Of a stretch of DNA of 34,688 nt, positions 1,711-17,930 are shown piece by piece. Below the pieces are notes generated by a model. That model had not been told where the DNA came from, did not search any database, and was given only the letters and a program-made list of their open reading frames with translations. This DNA is from a virus. Position numbers and translations under genes: made by a program. Each line of letters begins with the position of its first letter. Position 1 is the first letter of the stretch. The stretch spans positions 1-34,688 of the IMG/VR virus record IMGVR_UViG_3300030012_002140; one strand, given 5' to 3'.

Positions 1711-1776
1711 GTTGTGCTGATGACGCCTTAAGGCAGAAACTGGTGCGAATTAATCCGATCCGCGCCAGTCCATAAC
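1711..1776 (+). ncRNA. Candidate hammerhead ribozyme, stem I open
   Basis: All catalytic core parts are present in the right order on the plus strand. Stem I 5' strand GTTGTG is at 1711-1716, core CTGATGA at 1717-1723, stem II GCC/GGC with TTAA loop at 1725-1734, core GAAA at 1736-1739, stem III CTGGTGCG (1740-1747) pairs with CGCGCCAG (1761-1768) across a 13-base loop, then T1769 and C1770 (a GUC cleavage triplet), then stem I 3' strand CATAAC at 1771-1776. Stem I has 6 pairs (one G-U) and can extend past a U-U mismatch by three A-U pairs. Predicted cleavage is between 1770 and 1771, 28 bases before the next start codon. One oddity is that the usual G-C closing pair of stem II is C1724/A1735 here. 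Confidence 0.8.
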
Positions 1777-16067: not shown

Positions 16068-17930
16068 CTATGCGTTAGCTTCACGCCTTAGTTCTTCTCG
16101 TATAGCAGGAAGTACCTTATTTCTTACGTGGTCTTCATCACCAACCATATCGCCTGCAATATTAATAGTGACTCCACCACTAGGCTGACCTGTGTTATTC
16201 ATTTGCGCTAGGTTTTGCAGGCCAATACTATTTACTGCGCTACGTTGCATTATAAACTCGCCTGATTGCGCGAGTATTGGAACATTATCTTGACCTTGAA
16301 CCATACCGCCAGTAGCAAAACGCTGTATACCATTGTTTTGTATTAATCCACCTGTATGTCCAATAAATTGAGAAATTGCTGACAACCCAGCACCTGCAAC
16401 TTGCCCACCAGGTGCTAAAGCAATAACTGAGCCTAAAGTCCTAATAAATAAACCTAATTGTTGTGAAACAGACATACTCTCTTTACCCATTCTTGCCATA
16501 CTATTTCCAATTAGACCTATTGCGCTTGCAGCTTCCGTGCTAGACATTGCCATTTCTTTATCTTTAATGATTTTTTTATTTTGCTCTGTAATTCCTTTAA
16601 GCATCATGTCTGCAAATTTTTGTTCCGCCTCTGTAGCATTATCTAATGTTAATGCAAATTCTTGATTCATTAAAATCGCAGCAGTGTCAATCTGAACTTT
16701 ATCGCCTAATACCTGCTTTAACGCTCTTTCAGCATCAAGCATTTTTTGAGTCAAAGCTAATTTAGATTCGTCCATACCTAAATTTTCAGCAGATAATAAA
16801 AATACACCACGAGCCAACTCATCCATAGCTTTTTGCAATTCTACATTTTTTTCTAAAATTGTATTGCTTTGACCTAACGTGCTAATGTACTGGTTCATAT
16901 TCATACCAGCTTGTTGATAAGCTTGCGAGTTGTTATTTATTGCAGTGGTATTGGCATTAAATGCACCTGTGTAGTCTAAAAGCTGACTAATGGCAAAAGC
17001 TAAAACGCCAACTGCACCTGCACGCAAAACGCGATTAAAATTTAATGTGGTTGCTGTAGCTATAATTGCTTTGGCATTAAAAATAACAAAGGCAGCACCT
17101 AATGCTGTCACATGTCTCGTAAAATCTGCTAATGATTGTAAATCAATTGCTCGAAAAAATCTTTCAGTAGCTTGTACTGCTTCCATTAAAAATGGTGTTA
17201 ATAAATCACCAACTGTTGCTTGAAATCTTGTAATAGCATCTTGCATATTGCTCATAGCACCAGTAAGCGTTTGACTCATGCGCTTACTACTACCCTCAAT
17301 ACCTGACGCAGGATCAACTAATGTTTTAAGCAGTGCTTGTCTAAATTGAGGCAGTGTTGTTTTAGATAGGTCATCTAAACCTTGTGTGGTCTTAATAATA
17401 TTAAGTATTCCACGTTCTCTAAGTATATCTGCTGCACCAGCTCCACCAGCAAACGCGCGACCTAAAGCATTTGCTGCTTCAGTAGCGCTTGTACCCATGA
17501 ATGCAGCAAGGTCAGTAACAGACCTAAGTGTTGCTTCTGCATTTAATCCAAATGCTTGTAACTGCGCACCTGCATTGACAACATCATCAAGCATAAACGG
17601 TGTAGTTGCAGCGACCTCATTAAAAGCTTTAAATGCTTTCTCTGCATTTTCAACACCACCAGTAAGTCCTACTAATCTTGTTTTAACATCTTCAAATTGC
17701 CTTGAAGCATTTACAAAGCCACCAACAGCGCGCGTTAGACCTACGGTAGCAAATGATACTAGTAATAAATTATTTCTTAATGCGCCAACTTGTCTGCGTA
17801 ATCCAGCAGTAGCTTGGCGTTGACGGTTCTTTGCTTTAGTTGCTTTGTCTGAAGATTTTTCAATTTCTTGAAAACCTTTTTTAGCATCTCTAAAACCTTT
17901 AGTTCTTATTTCTATTATGAACTTGCTCAT
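16068..17930 (-). CDS. Tape measure protein, 620 aa
   Basis: N-terminal K-G-F-R-D-A-K-K-G-F-Q-E-I-E-K, then R-Q-F-E-D-V-K-T-R-L, T-P-F-M-L-D-D-V-V, A-L-G-R-A-F-A-G-G-A, characteristic of phage tail tape measure proteins. Hydrophobic helices lie near 270-320 and 490-530. The C-terminus has the frequent G-G-M-V-Q-G-x-D-N-V-P-I-L-A-Q-S-G-E-F-I-M motif. Its length sets tail length; 620 residues suggests a rather short siphovirus tail, about 90 nm by the usual 0.15 nm per residue rule. It starts inside the last 32 bases of the chaperone gene. Confidence 0.9.
   Translation of the reverse strand: MSKFIIEIRTKGFRDAKKGFQEIEKSSDKATKAKNRQRQATAGLRRQVGALRNNLLLVSFATVGLTRAVGGFVNASRQFEDVKTRLVGLTGGVENAEKAFKAFNEVAATTPFMLDDVVNAGAQLQAFGLNAEATLRSVTDLAAFMGTSATEAANALGRAFAGGAGAADILRERGILNIIKTTQGLDDLSKTTLPQFRQALLKTLVDPASGIEGSSKRMSQTLTGAMSNMQDAITRFQATVGDLLTPFLMEAVQATERFFRAIDLQSLADFTRHVTALGAAFVIFNAKAIIATATTLNFNRVLRAGAVGVLAFAISQLLDYTGAFNANTTAINNNSQAYQQAGMNMNQYISTLGQSNTILEKNVELQKAMDELARGVFLLSAENLGMDESKLALTQKMLDAERALKQVLGDKVQIDTAAILMNQEFALTLDNATEAEQKFADMMLKGITEQNKKIIKDKEMAMSSTEAASAIGLIGNSMARMGKESMSVSQQLGLFIRTLGSVIALAPGGQVAGAGLSAISQFIGHTGGLIQNNGIQRFATGGMVQGQDNVPILAQSGEFIMQRSAVNSIGLQNLAQMNNTGQPSGGVTINIAGDMVGDEDHVRNKVLPAIREELRREANA

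Follow-up and report, generated by a model that had tools for sequence, protein, structure and literature searches.

Positions 1711-1776 of the window, a viral sequence of 34,688 nucleotides (positions 1 to 34,688 of IMG/VR record IMGVR_UViG_3300030012_002140), contain a genuine type I hammerhead ribozyme in the leader of a phage gene, with a mismatch closing stem II in a form that recurs in other phages and is apparently functional. The ribozyme lies within an operon, and it is probable that the RNA is cut co-transcriptionally at the predicted site, between 1770 and 1771, splitting the transcript in two.

Architecture of the element

The core, the GAAA, the GUC and the three stems that a sequence-only reading had picked out on the + strand are all present. 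Stem I pairs GUUGUG (1711-1716) with CAUAAC (1771-1776) through six pairs, one of them G.U, and is followed by C3 to A9 of the catalytic core (CUGAUGA, 1717-1723), stem II with its loop (1724-1735), the core residues G12, A13 and A14 (GAA, 1736-1738) and the stem III hairpin (1739-1747 paired with 1761-1769). In stem II, C1724 at position 10.1 faces A1735 at position 11.1, and three base pairs between GCC (1725-1727) and GGC (1732-1734) then lead to the loop UUAA. Stem III consists of the A15.1-U16.1 pair and a further eight pairs, nine in all of which one is U.G, and has a loop of 13 nt. Since both ends of the RNA fall in stem I, the permutation is type I. The type I core is complete over 1717-1770 (C3 U4 G5 A6 N7 G8 A9, G12 A13 A14, A15.1-U16.1 and H17), and the stems of six, three and nine pairs, with both ends in stem I, match the covariance model R1, described below, over its full length. 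Absent is a G10.1-C11.1 pair, or indeed any pair, closing stem II, the window having C.A.

The hammerhead NUH rule is the established basis for placing the cut after C17, here C1770 of the GUC, giving a predicted cleavage site at 1770/1771. The 3' strand of stem I, as positioned by the covariance-model alignment, would then lie at the newly made 5' end of the mRNA downstream, with a predicted leader of 28 nt (1771-1798) that carries the ribosome site AGAGAGG (1785-1791), an instance of the AGAGAGGTTA box, before the ATG at 1799.

The bare pattern of core, GAAA and GTC would be expected 0.5 times per window; a descriptor with at least five, three and five pairs in stems I, II and III gave one match in the window, at 1717, and none in 400 dinucleotide-preserving shuffles. 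An exact search of viral contigs with the 29 bases of the window's own core found no other occurrence. For the isolated 66-nt stretch the hammerhead fold has an energy of -19.6 kcal/mol against a minimum free energy (MFE) of -21.2 kcal/mol, which means that a local hairpin competes with stem I and that a fold without this stem is slightly favoured for the sequence on its own.

Related phages and the surrounding operon

The window's leader is shared by contig IMGVR_UViG_3300030406_003319 (L005), and the ribozyme of L005 recurs in a third contig (L031). In these two relatives stem I is GUUAUA/UAUAAC, the core-adjoining G-C pair having become A-U through changes on both sides and the window's G.U having become A-U. 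Compensatory changes of the kind that the sequence-only reading had proposed looking for are thus seen in stem I; between the window and L005 they amount to one compensatory pair, and across the class described below covariation of the stems is strong. The core of both relatives is CCGAUGA, with U4 changed to C (U4C), where the window keeps U4. The opposition closing stem II in L005 is A.A, and its stem III retains eight pairs.

The operon occupies roughly 2 kb of the + strand, starting at about 280 and closing with a terminator near 2370, and most of its genes are preceded by the AGAGAGGTTA box. At its head a gene at 293-979 encodes a DUF7227 protein (PF23872, E 2e-87). Upstream of the hammerhead are a 177-aa gene of no family (1103-1636), which is 90% identical in L005 and replaced by a different gene in L031, and a hydrophobic ORF of 20 codons (MNDFIILIIFIIIAYLLDPD, 1636-1698) that stops just before the hammerhead and the end of which is kept in both relatives. 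Downstream, a 67-aa gene of no family (1799-2002), for which a protein search found no relatives, is followed in the 3' half of the operon by two more small genes of 58 and 50 aa (1999-2324), all on the + strand. L005 and L031 have a downstream gene in common and it differs from the 67-aa gene, the place of which it takes. The operon ends with the hairpin ACCCGGACUUGUUCCGGGU and a run of T (2348-2372), conserved in L005 and L031 and assigned here to the + strand (the hairpin listing gave it for the - strand). Amongst the three phages, therefore, the end of the 20-codon ORF and the hammerhead form a constant block, with the genes on both sides changing. A search of cultured-phage DNA with the window gave methyltransferase matches only, among those listed.

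On the + strand CGGAUUAA at 1691-1698 is complementary to UUAAUCCG at 1750-1757 in the stem III loop, a possible pseudoknot (P about 0.003). This 8-nt complement between the end of the upstream ORF (CGGATTAA, 1691-1698) and the stem III loop (TTAATCCG, 1750-1757) is identical in the three phages. Its presence in all three would be consistent with an upstream segment that switches cleavage on and off, either through this pairing or through a hairpin of GCGC (1703-1706) with GUGC (1714-1717), which is included in the MFE structure of the flanked sequence. L005, however, has AUAC and cannot form the GCGC/GUGC hairpin, and this alternative was set aside as a switch; the 8-nt pairing is invariant in the three phages and its 5' half lies inside the end of a coding frame. 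Regulated cleavage would therefore seem distinctly improbable, and the reading of a co-transcriptional self-cut is preferred.

A class of leader hammerheads in phages

Two patterns were scanned over IMG/VR; in the second, stem I was constrained at its inner three pairs alone. The second pattern gave at least 134 distinct viral matches. Among the 134 listed, the outer three pairs of stem I were complete in 121, stem II had at least two pairs in 118, stem III had at least three further pairs in 119, and all of these were found together in 110. Chance accounts for most of the 118 matches in genome contigs, and the outer pairs were complete in only 20 of them. The alignment from which R1 was built has 99.7% of its cells paired, against 33-38% when the partners are slid, a statistic that is partly circular; as its rows were chosen for pairing, the outer-pair count among the viral matches is the fairer test. 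A survey tolerating a single change at any conserved core position returned 169 distinct elements, of which 165 had the consensus core and four had U4C, with no other core change. In the 59 copies that neither pattern constrained in the core, N7 was C in 26, U in 24, A in seven and G in two, with the rest of CUGANGA invariant save for one U4C and GAAA invariant throughout. In known hammerheads, too, N7 is the only core position free to vary (PMC3088659).

The elements are tightly placed in leaders. Measured from the cut, the next ATG (of a frame of at least 30 codons) lies 15-30 nt away in 65% of 150 elements, compared with 9% for random positions on the same strand; the median is 26 nt and the window has 28. 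A long open frame spans 11 of the 150 elements against 104 of 150 random positions, and within a locus all copies are on one strand. Whole contigs have up to 13 matches (G029, the thirteenth being weak), with nine in G010 and seven in G031. A 39.8-kb contig, IMGVR_UViG_3300044732_000574 (L328/L329), has 13 type I matches on one strand. With these numbers the suggestion that a leader hammerhead before a phage gene is exceptional does not hold, more than 100 having been found here and examples flanking prophage genes having been reported in 2011 (PMC3088659).

Members of the class were taken as intergenic elements with a six-pair stem I ending in an outer G-C pair and a cut 15-45 nt before an ATG. 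The window fits this description, with a 6-bp stem I, the outer pair G1711-C1776, an intergenic position and a cut 28 nt before the ATG. The typical stem I has six pairs ending in G-C with a conserved A on its 5' flank and AA on its 3' flank, and loop II is UNANN, which together may form a tertiary contact. The corresponding elements of the window are U, UAA and UUAA, and no partner for a tertiary contact of loop II was identified.

Hosts of the class include Bacteroidota, with examples from Mucilaginibacter pedocola (L278) and from the cultured Flavobacterium phage elemoA_7-9A (MT497017, L370). The latter has one leader hammerhead (17290-17347, - strand) with the stem I GGCAAA/UUUGUC and a 28-nt leader, and the small CDS annotated over it on the + strand (17275-17382) is probably spurious. 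There are also four Legionella loci (L182, L226, L260 and L293) and a contig binned as Aliivibrio (L292) with nine matches, one of them weak. Cultured phages searched with regions from three of the loci (L328, L152 and L151) gave no match.

The covariance model R1 was built from 45 members of the class, with the window, L005 and L031 all left out. Against the window it gave 32.2 bits, with all positions scored and the alignment running end to end over exactly 1711-1776, although with the filters at their defaults the search reported just part of the element, at 13.2 bits; L005 and L031 both scored 34.8 bits. The type I assignment, the position of the cut at 1770/1771 and the 28-base leader proposed in the sequence-only reading thus find support in this independent model, in the two related phages with their compensatory change in stem I, and in a large class built on the same plan.

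That reading had also proposed a covariance search against Rfam, and here no hammerhead was found in the window by Rfam 15 at gathering thresholds, nor any hammerhead family in a 201-base segment at E<=10. The result does not refute the assignment. Of 16 loci with hammerhead-like matches none was matched by Rfam at the type I sites, the single match amongst them being to Hammerhead_II at another position (L025:1890-1953), and 12 loci with strong canonical type I members yielded none. Canonical members in L151 aligned at the right places with up to 28.6 bits to RF03152 RAGATH-1-hammerhead, where the cut-off is 56.3, and with 19.9 bits to RF00163 Hammerhead_1, where it is 34. Since Rfam also misses canonical members of the class, its silence is uninformative here. 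It would otherwise favour an attenuator, an inverted-repeat operator or a coincidental similarity, and the stem III hairpin alone might serve other uses; nevertheless, an invariant core with a free N7, covarying stems and a fixed leader spacing in many contigs are specific to hammerheads, making any such non-ribozyme explanation very unlikely indeed.

The opposition closing stem II

Mispairs closing stem II have generally been reported to be harmful, and the C.A of the window, correctly identified in the sequence-only reading, had been taken there as an unusual feature that might lower activity. Amongst 151 elements the closing opposition is G-C in 121, A.A in 13, C.A in nine, U..C in five, U.U in two and G.U in one, the A.A and C.A counts being partly selected by the first search pattern; A-U, C-G or U-A was found in none of the 151. 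An unbiased scan of the whole viral collection for A at 11.1 facing either A or C at 10.1 (M.A) gave 60 stretches, and a control scan of the same collection with C at 11.1 (A.C or C.C) gave five. Real hammerheads numbered 37 for M.A against one for M.C. L088, among these 37, has the look of a chance match, which leaves about 36 distinct members.

The 37 M.A elements comprise 20 with A.A and 17 with C.A, and have leader distances of 14-50 nt. The pair that follows the mismatch is G-C in 29 and G.U in six, so that G is at 10.2 in 35 of 37, compared with under half of the canonical set. The simplest reading is that the usual G-C has moved one step outward, with the M.A apposition inserted between it and the core. 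Perreault et al. treated any mispairing at 10.1-11.1 as grounds for rejection, noting U.U as a surprising exception (PMC3088659). Because U.U is known and M.A recurs in the class, a G10.1-C11.1 pair is a consensus feature and is not strictly defining.

It could still be argued that the fold was inherited from the class and that the mismatch, together with U4C in the relatives, slows cleavage to the point of irrelevance, the stem III hairpin being kept as a structured leader. Both C.A and U4C depart from the consensus, stem III is the stablest part of the element, and three phages are too few for strong covariation. Decay would, however, be expected to lose other core bases, and L005 retains all of them and compensates in stem I; U4C is the sole core change in the 169 matches even though any one change was allowed; and M.A occurs with G at 10.2, intact cores and leaders in about 36 members as against one for M.C. 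A slow or decaying hammerhead is consequently an unlikely explanation, and the C.A of the window is a recurrent natural variant and not an isolated defect.

The M.A opposition was also seen in other settings. Nine type III hammerheads with A.A or C.A closing stem II (L010, L013, L017, L018, L020, L023, L042, L057 and L059) lie upstream of phage genes with the cut 64-70 nt before the ATG, and have a stem I hairpin of seven pairs in which the loop is often GUGU, forming a second leader class. In four elements (L012, L014, L050 and L054) A.A closing is combined with a stem I that is extended to a considerable length and interrupted by an internal loop, which appears to be a further architecture with M.A closing. 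A type I hammerhead at L025:1171-1223 has both U4C and C.A, and the Hammerhead_II at 1890-1953 lies 0.7 kb downstream in the same phage.

Discussion

From the sequence, fold, class membership, leader placement and conservation described above we infer both cleavage and an effect on the mRNA. In type I cleavage the ribozyme stays on the upstream product, which ends in a cyclic phosphate, and the downstream product has a 5'-hydroxyl. The nascent RNA would fold and then cut itself at 1770/1771 while RNA polymerase passes, and the operon transcript would become two mRNAs. At its 3' end the upstream one would have the stem III hairpin of the ribozyme and a 2',3'-cyclic phosphate; the downstream one, which holds three small genes and reaches as far as the terminator at about 2370, would have a 5'-hydroxyl at its start, followed by the 28-nt leader containing the ribosome site. 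The phosphate-dependent decay pathway of many bacteria starts poorly from 5'-hydroxyl ends, which makes a longer life for this mRNA plausible. Such a cut might make the swappable accessory genes independent of the genes upstream in both mRNA stability and translation, and provide them with a 5' end that is uniform and free of phosphate. The likely role is thus to set the 5' ends of mRNAs by cutting during transcription.

Known systems show parts of this arrangement. Like the elements described here, the hammerheads flanking prophage genes reported by Perreault et al. in 2011 are of types I, II and III, lie near phage genes and often occur several close together, and in haloviruses HF1 and HF2 the example upstream of a helicase gene is 13 nt from the start codon, with a mapped 5' end within 3 nt of the hammerhead cut (PMC3088659). 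In the main text of that study only U.U appears at 10.1-11.1, and the C.A of the window and the M.A group as a whole fail its filter. RF00163 Hammerhead_1 has the same core and permutation as the window but does not match it, nor does it reach its cut-off with the canonical member noted above. RF03152 RAGATH-1-hammerhead is also type I, with a core-adjoining part of stem I that resembles the class and a sub-threshold alignment in L151, but it has an extra conserved 5' hairpin and spacer missing from the class and leaves the window unmatched. The core change of L005 and L031 is that of a U4C viroid hammerhead (Ambros and Flores 1998), the activity of which, in the account given by PMC3088659, is strongly lowered in vitro and sufficient in vivo; that example comes from a viroid rather than a phage leader, and the window itself has U4.

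The kind of element is therefore already known, whilst the variant, its frequency and its tight leader placement appear not to have been described in searchable open-access papers, and a 2017 review called the role of bacterial and phage hammerheads an open question (PMC6155905). The position of the cut, at a median of 26 nt before the start codon and in up to 13 copies per contig, points to a definite job, the making of mRNA 5' ends. The chances seem evenly balanced that leader hammerheads, numbering up to about a dozen in a genome, serve phages as a general means of dividing long transcripts into mRNAs of one gene each that begin with a 5'-hydroxyl. One working version of this system would be the form of stem II with M.A inserted between a G-Y pair and the core, a form that Rfam does not see and that the filters of earlier searches removed. 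The M.A form suggests a second natural solution at a position thought to be nearly fixed, and suggests that present covariance models and filters overlook a sizeable group of ribozymes.
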